Shown here one piece after another: positions 6,867 to 13,287 of a stretch of DNA of 22,437 nucleotides. This stretch comes from Mariprofundus sp. (lineage in GTDB: Bacteria; Pseudomonadota; Zetaproteobacteria; Mariprofundales; Mariprofundaceae). The notes beneath the pieces were generated by a model. The model was given only the letters and a program-made list of their open reading frames with translations. It was not told the DNA's origin and did not search any database. Each line of letters opens with the position of its first letter. Position 1 is the first letter of the stretch. The translations under genes and the position numbers were made by a program. The DNA is taken from contig JAUZQI010000157.1 of the NCBI GenBank assembly GCA_030951095.1, positions 1 to 22,437 on the forward strand. Reading direction: 5' to 3'.

Positions 6867-7825
6867 GATAACAACTCCAGATCTCCGGCGATAATGCGTT
6901 TGACGCCGTTGCCGGTATCCAGCAACAAGGCACCATCGTCATCCAGTGCAGTGGCAGTACCCTCGATGTATTGCCGGCCATCGTACACACTGACTCTGGC
7001 ACCCGAGGCTGCGTGGGCTTGCCACCAGGCACGGTGGACGGGGGCAAAGCCATGCTGCAAATAGATATCGTACCATTGATCAACTGCATTCAGAATAGCG
7101 ATGGCCAGTTCTGTTTTGGAGGCAGTTGAGGTGCTTATCGTGGTCAGGTCGGTAGCCGGTTTATTGATGTCGGATGGCCAGCCGTCAGCGGGTGCAGTCA
7201 GGTTAATGCCGAAGCCGAGTACAACAGTATGGACACGGCCGGGCTCGGCGCGCATTTCAGTCAGGATGCCGGCAACTTTTTTACCGTTGTGGAGCAGATC
7301 ATTGGGCCATTTGATACGGATATCCGGTGCATAACGGCTTAAAACTTCGTGCAGGGCAACCGCAGTCAGTAACGATAATTGCGGCACTTGTTCCGGGGGT
7401 AAATCAGGGCGCAGCAGAATACTGGCTGCCAGCGATGCGGGCATGGTATGCCAGATTCGCCCCAGCCTTCCCTTGCCGTGAAGTTGTCGGTTGGCGAAAA
7501 TCACCAGACCTTCCTCCGCGCCTTTCTCTGCCTGTTGCATGGCATCCTGATTGGTCGAGCCTGTTTCCTCGAGTATCATGATCTGTTTGCCGATGCGCCG
7601 GGTGGATAATTGTGCCTTGAGCAATCCTGCACTGAATATTTCTGAATTCAGAACATAACCTTTGCCGGGCTGCGCTTCGATGGCAATGCCATTTTTTTTC
7701 AGTATCTGGATATGTTTCCAGATGCCGGCACGTGACAGCCCCAGTTCGGACGCCAGATCGTCGCCGGAAACAGGTGTTTGACTCATGCCGAGCCGGGTCA
7801 GAATATGTTCACGAGCCTTGCTCAA
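6863..7825 (-). CDS. birA: Bifunctional biotin ligase / biotin operon repressor
   Basis: This 320-residue protein has an N-terminal winged helix (about 1-62; LSRAGIWKHIQILKKNGI is the recognition region), so it is the DNA-binding type II BirA. The catalytic domain carries GSTNQDAM, the biotinyl-AMP loop GKGRLGRIW (GRGRRGRxW in E. coli), KWPNDLL and KKVAGILTEMR with the biotin-contacting lysine. A C-terminal SH3-like domain ends the protein. It attaches biotin to the BCCP subunit of acetyl-CoA carboxylase. Its start overlaps the nadC stop by ATGA and its end overlaps coaX. No bio operon or BirA operator is seen in this window. Confidence 0.96.
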   Translation of the reverse strand: MSKAREHILTRLGMSQTPVSGDDLASELGLSRAGIWKHIQILKKNGIAIEAQPGKGYVLNSEIFSAGLLKAQLSTRRIGKQIMILEETGSTNQDAMQQAEKGAEEGLVIFANRQLHGKGRLGRIWHTMPASLAASILLRPDLPPEQVPQLSLLTAVALHEVLSRYAPDIRIKWPNDLLHNGKKVAGILTEMRAEPGRVHTVVLGFGINLTAPADGWPSDINKPATDLTTISTSTASKTELAIAILNAVDQWYDIYLQHGFAPVHRAWWQAHAASGARVSVYDGRQYIEGTATALDDDGALLLDTGNGVKRIIAGDLELLS

Positions 7826-8691
7826 GAGAGATATCCGGAGGCAGGGTCATCTGTATGAACGATTCGCATGGACAGGTCGAGCACCGGTGCAGAGTGGGTA
7901 ATGGCACCAATGGCGATGCGATTGACGCCAGTATCAGCATAGGCGCGGGCATTGCTCAGGGTGATATTTCCGCTGGCCTCCAGCAGGATTGAGGCAGGCA
8001 CAATCATTCGTGCCTGCCTGACCATGGCCGGATCCATATTGTCGAGCAGAATAATATTCGGGCGAACCGCAATCGCCTCGGTTACTTCATCCAGTGTCTC
8101 GCATTCCACTTCAATCCATATTGTATGATCATCCTGATTGCTTCGATTGTTTTGATGGCAGGCGTTGACTGCAGCCGTGATCGAGCCACATGCCTCGATA
8201 TGATTTTCCTTGATCAGCATACCGCTTTGCAGGTCCATACGATGATTAATGCCGCCGCCGTGAAGGACCGCCTGTTTTTCCAGATGCCGGAATCCCGGTG
8301 TGGTTTTGCGGGTATCAGCGATTTGGCAATCTGTTCCCTGCAGTGCATCTGTGAAGTCCCGGGTTGCCGTGGCAATGCCGGATAAATGTTGCAAAAAATT
8401 CAATGCGGTGCGTTCGGCTGCCAGCAGTGAACGCACCGGGCCGTTTAATTCGCCAATGACATGGCCGGCCTCCACCCGGTCTGCATCGGCGCTTTGCCAG
8501 TTGCAGTGAATAGACTTATCCACGGCGGCAAACACTGCATTCGCAACCGGGATGCCGGATATCACGCCGGTATCTTTGGCGGTAATACGGGCGGAGCCTT
8601 GCAAGTCGGCAGGAATGGTCGCTGTAGCAGTCAGATCGTTGAACACAGCATCTTCGGCCAGTGCCAGTTCAATCAGGGAGATAATATTCAT
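7822..8691 (-). CDS. nadC: Nicotinate-nucleotide pyrophosphorylase (carboxylating)
   Basis: This 289-residue quinolinate phosphoribosyltransferase converts quinolinate and PRPP to nicotinate mononucleotide in de novo NAD synthesis. Family motifs are clear: ERTALNFLQHLSGIAT, DTRKTTPGFRHLEKQAV, GGGINHRMDL, KENHI, LLDNM, and EASGNI with the phosphate-binding GVNRIAIGAIT near the end. The length agrees with the family (about 280-297). No good ribosome binding site precedes the ATG. It is the first gene of the nadC-birA-coaX unit, diverging from the cyclase gene across 136 bp. nadE, the last step of the same pathway, lies at 14417-16021. Confidence 0.97.
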   Translation of the reverse strand: MNIISLIELALAEDAVFNDLTATATIPADLQGSARITAKDTGVISGIPVANAVFAAVDKSIHCNWQSADADRVEAGHVIGELNGPVRSLLAAERTALNFLQHLSGIATATRDFTDALQGTDCQIADTRKTTPGFRHLEKQAVLHGGGINHRMDLQSGMLIKENHIEACGSITAAVNACHQNNRSNQDDHTIWIEVECETLDEVTEAIAVRPNIILLDNMDPAMVRQARMIVPASILLEASGNITLSNARAYADTGVNRIAIGAITHSAPVLDLSMRIVHTDDPASGYLS

Positions 8692-8827
8692 GGTGTCTGA
8701 ACTCTAGGAGTCTGTCTGAAAAGTGCATCCTTCATTTTTTCGACATGCAGGCAGAGCAATCTTGGTGGGATATTGCAGACACGGATTGCATGTTCTGGAT
8801 AAAATCAGGATGATGCAGGTTATGAAG

Positions 8828-11038
8828 ATGGACAGTGAAGGACGCCATGACAGGGCGACGATTCTGGTTGTTGATGATACACCCGAGAATATCGATGTGC
8901 TCAGGGGATTATTGAAAGCTCATTATAAGGTGCAAGTGGCCATTAACGGTGAACAGGCATTGAAACTCTGTTTTTCGGATCAACCACCCGATCTGGTTTT
9001 GCTGGATGTTATGATGCCAGGTATGGATGGTTTCGAAGTTTGTCGCAGGTTGAAAGCAGAGCCGCGCACCGAGGGTATGCCTGTTATTTTTGTAACAGCC
9101 ATGAATGAAGTTCGCAATGAGGTACAGGGATTTGAAGCCGGTGGTGTGGACTATATCAACAAGCCTGTGACACCGGCGATTGTCCTGGCCAGAGTCAAAA
9201 CCCATCTTCAATTGCGTTCAGCCTATCGTTTTATTCGGGATACATTCGGGCGTTATCTGTCGGATGAAATTGTCGATAATCTGATCGATTCGCCTGAAGG
9301 CTTGAGACTGGGAGGCGAAAAGCGCCACCTGACTATCATGATGGCAGATTTGCGCGGTTTCACATCCATTGGTGAGCGCTTGCCGGCGGAAACTGTGGTT
9401 AAAATGATCAATATATTCCTTGGCCATATGACCGAAATCATTCAGAAACATCAGGGTACCATTGATGAATTTATCGGTGATGCCATTCTGGCGATTTTCG
9501 GAGCGCCGATTCTGCGCGAGGACGATGCATTGCGGGCAGTCAGGTGTGCTCTGGAGATGCAACTGGCCATGCAGGAAGTGAATCGTCAATTTATACAGGC
9601 AGGCTTTCCCGCTATCGAGATGGGTATTGGTATCAATACCGGCGAGGTGATTGTAGGTAATATCGGTTCGAAGAAACGTACCAAATACGGTGTGGTTGGC
9701 CGGGTGGTAAATACCACATCAAGAATCGAGTCCTATACCATCGGTGGCCAGATTCTGGTTTCCGAAAATACAAAAGAAGAGTGCCGTGGTCTGCTCAGGG
9801 TTGACGGACAGATGGAAGTCATGCCCAAAGGTTTGAGTGAGGCTATCACTATCTATGATATCGGTGCTATATCAGGTGATGAGCCTGTGCAGCTACCTGA
9901 ACCTGAATCAGTTGAGCTGATACAACTGGAGAGACCTGTCGATGTCCGTATTTTACCGATGACCGGCAAGCGCATGGCGGATGGTTTTAAAGGCAGGATT
10001 CTTAAACTCGGACAACGCGTCATGCAGATTATGGCTGATCAGCCATGCGGTGATTTCAGTGACCTCAGAATTGTGCTTTTGGACGAAGCCGGGAACATTC
10101 TGACAAAAGAACTATATGTGAAAGTGATGCGGCAGATTGATGTGGAGCCGATCATTTTTCATGCTCACGCCACATCATTATCTCCGGTTGCGGAGCGCTT
10201 GTTTCAGACGCTATGCAAGCGTGAGGACAAAGAGGATGCAAGGTCTGTTCGCATACTTCACATGACTGATTTTCATATTTATACCGATCCTGAGCGCATG
10301 ATCAAAGGGATTTGTTCCAACGACAGTCTGGCTGCGGTATTTGAGCATGCCCACCATTATTGCCCTGATCCTGATGCCATTATTCTCGGTGGTGATCTGG
10401 CGCAGGATGAATTGCCATCCACCTACAAGCGACTGGCGGCGATGCTTGGCCAGTGGTCGTCACCATTTATGGTGACACCGGGGAACCATTCCAGCTTGCC
10501 GGCTTTGCGTCATACCCTGATTCCTGCCCTGAAGACAATATTCAGTTATTCGGACTGTCTTACCATGGCCGGATGGAAGGTGATTGCACTGAACTCACAT
10601 GAACGGGGCAGTGTTGGTGGCCTGCTTGCCGATGCGGAACTGGATCGACTGGAACAACTTCTCTCTGCAAAGGATTATATCCATGCGCTGATTGCAATAC
10701 ATCATCATCCGGTTGATATCGGTAGTGGCTGGCTGGATAACATCGGCTTGAATAATCAGGACAGACTGTGGTCAGTCATCGATCATTTTCCACAGGTGCG
10801 CGCAATGATATGCGGGCATATCCACCAATCATTGGATGTGATGCATGGTAGCGTTCGTATCCTCGGTACACCTTCGACCTGTATGCAGTTTATGCCGTTG
10901 CAGGATAATTTTTGTATGGATGAGGTTTCTCCGGGTTATCGCTGGCTGGAATTGTTACAGGACGGTTCAATCCGGACGGGCGTTGAACGCATCGAAGGGT
11001 TTATTCCACCAGACCTGAATGACGACGATTTCTATTGA
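8828..11038 (+). CDS. Receiver-nucleotide cyclase-PilZ-like-metallophosphoesterase fusion
   Basis: The open frame begins with GTG at 8723 (771 codons). I prefer ATG 8828 because AGG lies 8 bases upstream and the preceding 35 codons look non-coding; ATG 8822 is an alternative. Residues are numbered from the GTG. The receiver domain spans 45-165 (Asp51/52, phosphoacceptor Asp95, Thr125, Lys147). The class III cyclase spans about 200-355 (metal Asp209 and Asp253, transition-state Asn330 and Arg334). A PilZ-like barrel spans about 404-500 and lacks RxxxR and NxSxxG. A CpdA-type metallophosphoesterase spans 510-728 (Asp516, His518, GGD558, GNH589, His662, GHIH 698-701). Both catalytic domains keep their metal ligands. 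It should make, and perhaps also hydrolyse, a cyclic nucleotide under phosphorylation control. No membrane segment is present. MITE copy C overlaps its TGA. Confidence 0.93.
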   Translation: MDSEGRHDRATILVVDDTPENIDVLRGLLKAHYKVQVAINGEQALKLCFSDQPPDLVLLDVMMPGMDGFEVCRRLKAEPRTEGMPVIFVTAMNEVRNEVQGFEAGGVDYINKPVTPAIVLARVKTHLQLRSAYRFIRDTFGRYLSDEIVDNLIDSPEGLRLGGEKRHLTIMMADLRGFTSIGERLPAETVVKMINIFLGHMTEIIQKHQGTIDEFIGDAILAIFGAPILREDDALRAVRCALEMQLAMQEVNRQFIQAGFPAIEMGIGINTGEVIVGNIGSKKRTKYGVVGRVVNTTSRIESYTIGGQILVSENTKEECRGLLRVDGQMEVMPKGLSEAITIYDIGAISGDEPVQLPEPESVELIQLERPVDVRILPMTGKRMADGFKGRILKLGQRVMQIMADQPCGDFSDLRIVLLDEAGNILTKELYVKVMRQIDVEPIIFHAHATSLSPVAERLFQTLCKREDKEDARSVRILHMTDFHIYTDPERMIKGICSNDSLAAVFEHAHHYCPDPDAIILGGDLAQDELPSTYKRLAAMLGQWSSPFMVTPGNHSSLPALRHTLIPALKTIFSYSDCLTMAGWKVIALNSHERGSVGGLLADAELDRLEQLLSAKDYIHALIAIHHHPVDIGSGWLDNIGLNNQDRLWSVIDHFPQVRAMICGHIHQSLDVMHGSVRILGTPSTCMQFMPLQDNFCMDEVSPGYRWLELLQDGSIRTGVERIEGFIPPDLNDDDFY

Positions 11039-11212: not shown

Positions 11213-11953
11213 CTACAACAGCCACATGACAAAACCCATGCTCAGCATGGCGGCAGGAGCATTCCACTGGCCCGGCACGAGTGCCCGGGTGGCTGAAGCT
11301 GCCATGGCTGTAATCAGTGTTGCAATCAGCAGCGTTTGCCAGTCCGTACCGTGAAATACGTGCAGACTCCAGCACAGCAGGATTGTGCATATTACAATCA
11401 GCACCAGATGGCTGGCCAGTGTCTGTTCCGGGTGGGCGGGGAAACCCAGTTTGAGGAAGGCGAATTTATGCACAGCCAGTTGATCGACCAGGTCTACCGA
11501 TCGAAAAGCCAGGCAAAGGCAGAGCGCCAACCCGAAACCGAACTCAGGTATATGTTGAAACCAGATGCCTGCAATGATTAAGGCAGTCAGAAAATGGGCC
11601 ATCGGTGGCAATGGGAGAACAGGATATATTCTGAGTTCTGAATCCATTGTTTGCGTCGTCCATGCTGCTCGCAGTTGTTGCCAGAAAGGTGATGTGAGCA
11701 GGCAGGATAACACAGCCGGAAGCATCAGTGCTGCCAGCCCGATCCAAAGCCAGCGGGCATCAACATAGACCGGCCACATCAGCACCCAGATGGTTAACAG
11801 GGGCGGAATGGCATATTGAATGCTTTCCGGTGGTATGCCCCGACGCAGAAGCATTACCGAAAACCATGCCAACTGCAACACACCCAACACAACAAGTGCG
11901 TTCAGCACAAGATCACCTGTGGCAATATGTTCAAACATGGACTGATCTATCAT
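11213..11953 (-). CDS. Polytopic membrane protein, possible CTP-transferase/dolichol-kinase-like fold
   Basis: This 246-residue protein has about seven hydrophobic segments (about 15-36, 47-62, 70-88, 115-132, 137-150, 182-200 and 205-245). A soluble loop near 150-175 contains HKFAFLKLGFPAHPEQTLAS. The closing ATRALVPGQWNAPAAML resembles the conserved end of the dolichol kinase/phytol kinase/DGK1 superfamily (E...DN...P). The usual KT(x)EGS motif would correspond to HPEQTLAS and is not intact, so any kinase activity is doubtful. No clear ribosome binding site precedes ATG 11953; ATG 11938 is an alternative. The membrane location is well supported; the family link is inference. Confidence 0.75.
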   Translation of the reverse strand: MIDQSMFEHIATGDLVLNALVVLGVLQLAWFSVMLLRRGIPPESIQYAIPPLLTIWVLMWPVYVDARWLWIGLAALMLPAVLSCLLTSPFWQQLRAAWTTQTMDSELRIYPVLPLPPMAHFLTALIIAGIWFQHIPEFGFGLALCLCLAFRSVDLVDQLAVHKFAFLKLGFPAHPEQTLASHLVLIVICTILLCWSLHVFHGTDWQTLLIATLITAMAASATRALVPGQWNAPAAMLSMGFVMWLL

Positions 11954-12099: not shown

Positions 12100-12127
12100 A
12101 AAATCCATGTGCGTCAGGAGGGAAATG

Positions 12128-12796
12128 ATGACTCAGGATGAAATGAAACAGAAAGTGGCCGAAGCGGCGCTGAAATATGTCAAGGAGGATACGATTATCG
12201 GTGTCGGAACCGGCTCCACTGCCAATCTGTTTATTGACGCACTGGCGGGCATGAAGACTGGCATTATCGGAACAGTAGCCAGTTCGGAAGCAACGGCTGA
12301 ACGCTTGCAGGGGCATGGTATTTCAGTACTGGAATTGAACGAAGCACTTTCTCAGGTGGATTCACTATCCGTGTACATCGATGGGGCGGATGAATTTGAT
12401 GGTGGTAAAAACCTGACCAAGGGTGGTGGCGGCGCACTGACACGCGAGAAAATTGTAGCGGCGGCTTCCGATGCATTTATCTGCATTGTGGATGAGAGCA
12501 AGAAGGTTGACCATCTCGGTGCTTTCCCCTTGCCGATTGAAGTGATTCCAATGGCCGGAGGGCTGGTTGCCAATGTGGCCAGAGAGCTGGGTGGAAAACC
12601 GGAACTGCGTGAAGGCTTCATGACAGATAACGGTAATATTATTATTGATGTGCACGGTTTAAGCATTACCGATGCACGCGGGCTGGAAGATCATCTCAAC
12701 AGCATCCCCGGTGTTGTGACCAATGGCATTTTTTCGCATCAGGGCGCGGATGTTGTCCTTATGGGGACACCGGATGGTGTGGAAATTATTGAGTGA
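12128..12796 (+). CDS. rpiA: Ribose-5-phosphate isomerase A
   Basis: This 222-residue cytoplasmic enzyme interconverts ribose 5-phosphate and ribulose 5-phosphate in the pentose phosphate pathway. I chose the second of two adjacent ATGs because AGGAGG lies 6 bases upstream and the N-terminus [18 protein letters not shown] aligns with E. coli RpiA (MTQDELKKAVGWAALQYV). Motifs are [15 protein letters not shown] (25-39), DGADEFD with Asp85 and Asp88, and [11 protein letters not shown] with Lys98 and the catalytic base Glu107. The length matches E. coli (219). Its TGA stop overlaps a GTG that opens the frame leading into the receiver gene. Confidence 0.97.
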
Positions 12797-12945: not shown

Positions 12946-13287
12946 GTGGATGATGATGAGAACATCAGGCTGGTTACATCGGCCATGGTGGAAGATATGG
13001 GCCTTAAGGCCATGAGTGCCTGGAATGGCCTTGAAGCACTGGATTTGTATCGCCGGTATCAGGATGAAATAACTGGTGTTCTGATGGATATGAGCATGCC
13101 AGAAATGGATGGCAGAGAATGTTGCCGTGAGCTGCTTAACATGAACCCGGCAGTGAAGATTATATTTGCCAGTGGTTATAATGAACAGGATACAGTCGCC
13201 CGTTTTGGCGGCCGGGGATTGGCCGGATTCATCCAGAAACCTTATTCGCCGGGTGCACTGAAGGCGGTTTTGAAAAAAGCGCTGTAA
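12946..13287 (+). CDS. Response regulator receiver domain protein with unclear start
   Basis: The only canonical start is GTG 12946, which gives 113 residues but removes strand beta-1 (TILIV). SD-like GGAGGG at 12927-12932 is better spaced for the non-canonical codons ATA 12937 or CTG 12940. Receiver features are complete from there: acidic triad VDDDE, phosphoacceptor Asp48 (numbered from the GTG) in LMDMSMPEMDG, Ser in FASGYN and Lys in FIQKPYSPGAL. The ending GLAGFIQKPY is typical of C-terminal receivers of hybrid sensor kinases. No output domain or kinase is next to it. It is either a stand-alone CheY-like protein, a read-through product from 12793, or a decaying fragment. Confidence 0.75.
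   Translation: MDDDENIRLVTSAMVEDMGLKAMSAWNGLEALDLYRRYQDEITGVLMDMSMPEMDGRECCRELLNMNPAVKIIFASGYNEQDTVARFGGRGLAGFIQKPYSPGALKAVLKKAL

Follow-up and report, generated by a model that had tools for sequence, protein, structure and literature searches.

Can a single bacterial polypeptide both synthesize and hydrolyze a cyclic mononucleotide as the output of a receiver domain? The question is raised by one gene of Mariprofundus sp. (assembly GCA_030951095.1, 1.65 Mb, estimated 78% complete), located in contig JAUZQI010000157.1; the window analyzed here is this contig in full (22,437 nucleotides). The open reading frame at 8723-11038 on the forward strand encodes 771 residues from a GTG codon with zero internal stops, and all residue numbers given below refer to this frame. 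Three Pfam domains were detected, each above its cut-off: Response_reg (residues 47-158, 91.8 bits), Guanylate_cyc (residues 201-355, 97.8 bits against a cut-off of 21.9) and Metallophos (residues 510-702, 46.1 bits). Together with a barrel recognized by its predicted fold, these matches bear out the order receiver, cyclase, PilZ-like barrel and metallophosphoesterase in one frame, which an earlier note had proposed from the letters of this DNA. The real start is probably near 8822 rather than at GTG 8723. The database copy and its three closest homologs are all 738 residues long, which points to the ATG at 8822 (fused gene 8822..11038, + strand, 738 residues), and the stretch upstream of 8822 is poorly conserved in two close relatives, which argues for a start within about 8810-8828.

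The receiver (REC) domain (8861..9196, + strand) carries the phospho-acceptor Asp95 together with Asp51, Asp52, Thr125 and Lys147. This set of phospho-Asp, acidic pair, Thr and Lys is identical in all 26 fused sequences compared (P0002-P0023 plus four genomic loci, with L006 and L007 repeating P0018 and P0021, and with P0024 left out). A signaling helix with a cyclase-transducing element follows (9197..9322, + strand, residues about 159-200, placed by alignment to chain 6fht_A); it contains FGRY, which the accessible text of PMC5995499 gives as a motif of this element. In the class III nucleotide cyclase domain (9323..9787, + strand), the metal-binding Asp209 and Asp253, the base-selecting Glu249 and Gly323, and the transition-state residues Asn330 and Arg334 are likewise identical in 26/26 fused sequences. 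The CpdA-like metallophosphoesterase (10250..10999, + strand, residues 510-759) presents nine metal-site residues, Asp516, His518, Asp558, Asn588, His589, His660, His661, His699 and His701, identical in every fused sequence covering them, with gaps in the truncated sequences P0015 and P0023. Both active sites thus keep their metal ligands, as the earlier note had stated, with every residue tested conserved in the fused copies. The three positions it had singled out for mutation correspond to the phospho-Asp of the receiver (D95), the second metal Asp of the cyclase (D253) and the His of the phosphoesterase GNH motif (H589).

Between the two catalytic domains, the PilZ-like region (9875..10231, + strand, residues about 385-503) comprises a six-stranded barrel, a C-terminal helix and a linker, modeled by AlphaFold2 with a pLDDT of 79.9. 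A Foldseek search with the barrel model returned PilZ domains for all seven matches at E ≤ 0.001. Pfam gave no match for the barrel of the window protein and a PilZ match in none of 18 members of the family, so that the description of the middle domain as PilZ-like holds for the predicted fold and finds no counterpart in the domain model or in ligand motifs. PilZ receptors of c-di-GMP bear the motifs RxxxR and [DN]xSxxG. Both are absent from the window protein's barrel; [DN]xSxxG occurred in 0/18 members, and RxxxR was found by bare pattern in eight of the 18, all split (positions 59-60 or 104-109), and in none of five fused members. Judged from its residues, the barrel does not belong to the canonical c-di-GMP receptors.

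The proposed resemblance of the phosphoesterase to CpdA/Icc was upheld by model scores. The CpdA model (NCBIfam PRK11148) gave 217.5 bits over residues 503-759; this lies below the equivalog cut-off of 225, and the domain is accordingly named CpdA-like. Three unfused relatives scored 249.6, 220 and 222.7 bits on the same model (the first two from split loci) and E. coli CpdA 518.5 bits, while the 2',3'-specific SpdA model gave 82.9 bits for the window protein and 84.3 bits for E. coli CpdA itself. Identity to E. coli CpdA was 37% over 249 aligned positions. The metal-site motifs are common to both proteins, with the gene free-standing in E. coli and fused here. The closest solved relatives by sequence were 2dxl, labeled 'Phosphohydrolase' and presumably GpdQ (71.2 bits), and Rv0805 (58 bits). 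The genome itself encodes one other metallophosphoesterase, by eye not CpdA-like. Elsewhere, a CpdA-like protein at L077:3404-4774 (+) has a 456-residue frame with approximately 190 N-terminal residues lacking a Pfam match, possibly a frame extended upstream.

For the cyclase, the best solved matches were 6fht_A (262.5 bits) and then 2w01_A (231.2 bits). We take the latter chain to be the guanylyl cyclase Cya2 of Synechocystis, which the structure table labels adenylate cyclase, and 6fht to be a chimera containing the Cya2 E488K variant. At the first base-selecting site 6fht_A has Lys and 2w01_A has Glu; the window protein has Glu, as in 2w01_A. According to the accessible parts of the respective papers, Cya2 has guanylyl cyclase activity and an E-G base-selecting pair (PMC4215837), and the E488K variant incorporated in a chimera has adenylate cyclase activity (PMC5995499). 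Since the window protein shares the pair with Cya2, as Glu249 and Gly323, cGMP is by its sequence more likely the product than cAMP. Glu249 is constant in all 79 tabulated sequences (26 fused, 13 split, 34 unfused and 6 outgroup, some of them repeats), and its partner is Gly in 26/26 fused sequences; among split relatives it is Gly in 6/13 and Ala in 7/13. One Cya2 feature is missing: a Tyr described in the available text of PMC4215837 as raising guanylyl cyclase activity corresponds to Ser333 in all 26 fused sequences. The same genome encodes a second class III cyclase with Lys and Thr at the base-selecting sites, expected from these residues to be of the adenylyl, cAMP-making type. At L029:1199-2643 in this genome, a 126-residue gene, PilZ-like by eye, overlaps the Lys/Thr cyclase by 4 nt.

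The earlier note had called the fusion unfamiliar and suggested looking for the same architecture elsewhere. A search of 5.8 billion proteins identified 23 clusters in which a single chain carries both the cyclase and the phosphoesterase, that is, 22 besides the window's own; 22 of the 23 carry all three Pfam domains, and P0024 lacks the REC domain. Fused matches were also present in at least five of 100 genomes searched, the own genome included (G000, G004, G018, G022 and G042), with at most about ten candidates scored per genome and full-length matches heading the matches listed. The four fused loci named below are those of G018, G004, G022 and G042 and hence add no further cases; protein and locus searches both rest on shared words. 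With the phosphoesterase as the query and proteins of about 424-1349 residues considered, no cyclase-CpdA fusion was found outside this group: apart from the fused clusters, which made up 23 of the 25 matches, two proteins came up, P0057, with Metallophos alone and from a contig of 3.2 kb, and P0122. The last of these, 503 residues long and from a 921-kb contig, joins a CpdA-like phosphoesterase to a TraB-family domain (PF01963).

The fused gene is under purifying selection, and neither active site is decaying. Compared with two close fused relatives, dN/dS was 0.04-0.05 for REC, 0.085-0.095 for the cyclase, 0.12-0.14 for the barrel and 0.13 for the phosphoesterase, and 0.21-0.29 for the linker (24 codons). 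Against a third, distant fused relative the values were 0.04 (REC), 0.13 (cyclase), 0.29 (barrel) and 0.16 (phosphoesterase) at a dS of 1.1-2.6. Across the distant fused relatives, dN/dS ranged from 0.04 to 0.37 in one, and dS was saturated in most parts of the other.

In other Mariprofundus genomes the same parts occur in the same order, and in some of these genomes with the same neighbors, as two genes: a receiver-cyclase-PilZ-like protein and a separate CpdA. Of 15 unfused loci, 13 have a cpdA-like gene immediately after the cyclase gene, and in the remaining two the cyclase stands alone. The spacing in these 13 loci is -10 nt (two loci), -4 nt (six), +2 nt (two) or 97-109 nt (three), so that the genes overlap in eight. 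Named strains of Mariprofundus ferrooxydans, M. micogutta and M. erugo possess this two-gene form, and the adjacency of the separate genes in relatives supports a shared pathway. Among the best 80 of 400 related CpdA loci, four were fused, 10 had a class III cyclase gene just upstream and 66 had none within the sequence available; several of these loci end at contig ends, and the cyclase profile was built from this family and one other cyclase, such that distant cyclases could escape it.

Flanking genes link the two forms. In the window, the fused gene is preceded by a divergent nadC-like gene for quinolinate phosphoribosyltransferase (7822..8691, - strand; QRPTase_N and QRPTase_C) and followed by a convergent gene for a 246-residue protein with no Pfam match (11213..11953, - strand) and by a gene at 12107..12796 (+ strand), which, judged by its sequence, is probably rpiA-like. 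Homologs of the three were found at 7, 9 and 8, respectively, of 14 named related loci (four fused and 10 split), several of which run into contig ends. A nadC homolog on one side and a homolog of the 246-residue protein on the other are present at the fused loci L056 and L057 and at the split loci L062, L067, L068 and L073. At some other loci a single side is matched, and the window's neighbors are not found at the fused loci L058 and L060. These markers, common to fused and split loci, indicate that the fused gene of the window's branch occupies the two-gene site of its relatives. Beyond the rpiA-like gene, the window encodes an orphan single receiver (12946-13287, + strand) whose top-scoring NCBIfam model is that of CckA, in its receiver part; at L056, too, a receiver-containing reading frame follows the rpiA-like gene.

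Phylogenetic trees suggest a single origin of the fused form. In the phosphoesterase tree (51 sequences, rooted on two long solo proteins that the tree program flagged; P0018 and P0021 left out as repeats, P0024 included), the 25 fused sequences group together in a single clade (99/95) that contains no split or solo sequence, and this clade meets two groups of split pairs in an unresolved fork. The cyclase-domain tree (77 sequences, 71 of them different; P0018 and P0021 omitted as repeats of L006 and L007) requires one change between the fused and split states. With the fused sequences at its base, this tree would imply that the ancestral gene was fused and came apart later; its six outgroup sequences are scattered, some on long branches. 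Fusion is favored because the CpdA-like gene occurs in 12 other genomes where, as sampled, this cyclase is not beside it, and one fusion is the simplest history. Most likely, therefore, two neighboring genes that often overlap were joined once, in the Mariprofundaceae, to give this gene, and splitting of an ancestral fused gene may be the alternative direction.

Potential partners in signaling were sought around the gene and in the rest of the genome. Four cNMP-binding stretches were detected in three proteins of the own genome, one of them a Crp-type regulator with a cNMP-binding domain, the kind of gene that the earlier note had recommended looking for. A protein with two such stretches is encoded at L032:1282-2358 of this genome. 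CRP-type sites were not enriched in the window (8 matches versus 10.7 expected by chance). A cNMP-binding protein was encoded near the gene in five of the 14 named loci (4/10 split, 1/4 fused), as sought by BLAST with five such proteins, a search that distant ones could escape. The fused locus of isolate M1294 (Mariprofundaceae) also encodes a TPR protein that contains two cNMP-binding stretches (L060:841-2016, +); its reading frame shares 4 nt with the beginning of the fused gene, and the protein is, on this arrangement, likely an operon partner and effector. Beside the split pairs of L062 (4822-5445, -), L067, L068 and L073, a convergent gene encodes a cNMP-binding protein; its motif FGEL...RRTA or RRSA was read in L062 and L067 only. 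Pfam identified no kinase and no cNMP-binding protein in the two immediate neighbors of the window's fused gene, and 12 HATPase_c matches occur in the own genome. The split pair of Mariprofundus erugo lies beside a gene for a hybrid histidine kinase with HAMP, HisKA, HATPase, two REC and Hpt domains (L063:4857-7952, -), a candidate phosphodonor.

From this arrangement of domains, we infer that both enzymatic activities are present and act on the same messenger. A histidine kinase would phosphorylate Asp95, and the signaling helix would pass this change to a class III cyclase dimer, which would turn a purine nucleotide, most likely GTP, into the cyclic nucleotide. Hydrolysis of 3',5'-cyclic nucleotides would fall to the CpdA-like domain of the same polypeptide, so that a single molecule could set the balance between synthesis and breakdown and permit fast shut-off of the signal. 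That the protein is such a two-way cyclic mononucleotide enzyme, serving as a response-regulator output with one fusion origin in the Mariprofundaceae, is the reading we favor and consider reasonably probable. The predicted model counts against it to the extent that its pTM of 0.53 is too low to fix the domain arrangement.

The fusion might, in principle, be an assembly artefact or a frame error joining two genes, since relatives do have its parts as separate genes, in four cases with the same flanking genes. The earlier note had named a frame error between residues 360 and 510 as what would separate the two genes, but the 22 other fused clusters exclude it; together with four other genomes, the single clade and low dN/dS before and after the junction, they rule out an artefact of either kind, to which we give a negligible chance. 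The remaining alternatives accept the fusion and concern its substrates. Were the Glu/Gly pair not to dictate the use of GTP in this protein, it could make and degrade cAMP: CpdA is a cAMP enzyme, and the Tyr that raises activity in Cya2 is Ser here. However, Glu249 is constant in all 79 sequences and its replacement in Cya2 E488K goes with adenylate cyclase activity (accessible text of PMC5995499), which makes a cAMP cycle improbable.

The two domains could also act on different substrates. In one such scheme the cyclase makes cGMP and the CpdA-like domain destroys cAMP, so that activation would raise one messenger and lower the other. The Glu/Gly pair, the best match of the phosphoesterase to a cAMP phosphodiesterase model and the second, Lys/Thr cyclase as an expected source of cAMP all fit this scheme, but the CpdA proteins of E. 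coli and P. aeruginosa are termed 3',5'-cNMP phosphodiesterases in the part of PMC4222275 available, and we regard an exchange of messengers as unlikely. Alternatively, the phosphoesterase might hydrolyze 2',3'-cyclic nucleotides or other phosphodiesters, and the fusion would then tie cyclic-nucleotide synthesis to another substrate; the earlier note had named action on unrelated phosphodiesters only as contrary to its reading, and the sequence by itself would allow it. There is a precedent in SpdA, whose gene lies at the Sinorhizobium cyaD1 locus: it was expected to be a 3',5'-cAMP enzyme and turned out to be active on 2',3'-cNMP (same source), and the similarity to 2dxl (71.2 bits) and Rv0805 (58 bits) would also be compatible with it. 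This alternative is quite improbable given that the CpdA model outscores SpdA by 217.5 to 82.9 bits, that two split relatives reach 249.6 and 220 bits on the CpdA model, and that over a third of aligned residues (37%) are shared with E. coli CpdA. The two-way enzyme acting on one messenger remains our preferred reading.

GGDEF-EAL and SpoT-type proteins unite within a single polypeptide two opposing enzymes, one that makes a nucleotide messenger and one that hydrolyzes it. The window protein shares this opposed-pair logic with them, whereas the domains and messengers are unrelated. Cya2 has the same base-selecting pair, but in the accessible text of PMC5995499 it bears a CHASE2 sensor and a membrane segment where the window protein has a REC domain; no phosphoesterase is described for it, and it has Tyr at the position of Ser333. 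A precedent in composition is CAPE of Marchantia polymorpha and other streptophytes, which, like the window protein, unites a class III cyclase and a phosphodiesterase on one chain, with both activities demonstrated for MpCAPE (available part of PMC5159850). In contrast to the window protein, CAPE is a plant protein with two membrane-spanning segments, an adenylyl cyclase and a class I phosphodiesterase, the latter at the N terminus (PMC8115329, as far as accessible), and no receiver is mentioned in the text available. The class I phosphodiesterase domain is absent from the window protein, whose phosphoesterase is Metallophos by Pfam. In the cGMP pathway of Xanthomonas, a class III cyclase is linked to a cNMP-binding effector, and the accessible text describes this cyclase with TPRs and not with a phosphodiesterase domain (PMC3770947). 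A literature search by title and start of abstract, with few subscription journals covered, found no bacterial cyclase-phosphodiesterase fusion. The modules of the protein are thus known ones, and no description of this combination turned up in the literature and sequence searches made. It is possible, and we propose this tentatively, that the protein is the first example from bacteria of a single chain that both synthesizes a cyclic mononucleotide and breaks it down, directed at cGMP and with its direction set by phosphorylation of the receiver.

If true, this would provide the cyclic-mononucleotide counterpart of GGDEF-EAL and SpoT. Because the two-gene form is alive in cultured relatives, the effect of having one chain is directly measurable, and comparison of fused and two-gene forms offers a direct test of whether joining alters the speed or noise of the signal. 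A switchable cyclic-nucleotide tool might also be built on this protein. What cGMP does in bacteria has been called poorly understood (accessible text of PMC3770947), and on cyclic-nucleotide signaling in iron-oxidizing Zetaproteobacteria nothing was found beyond work on CpdB-like proteins in a literature search at the level of titles and abstract openings. Some iron-oxidizing bacteria of the Mariprofundus group place a probable cGMP maker and a probable cyclic-nucleotide phosphodiesterase under one receiver, a pointer to cyclic-nucleotide signaling in the iron-oxidizing Zetaproteobacteria.
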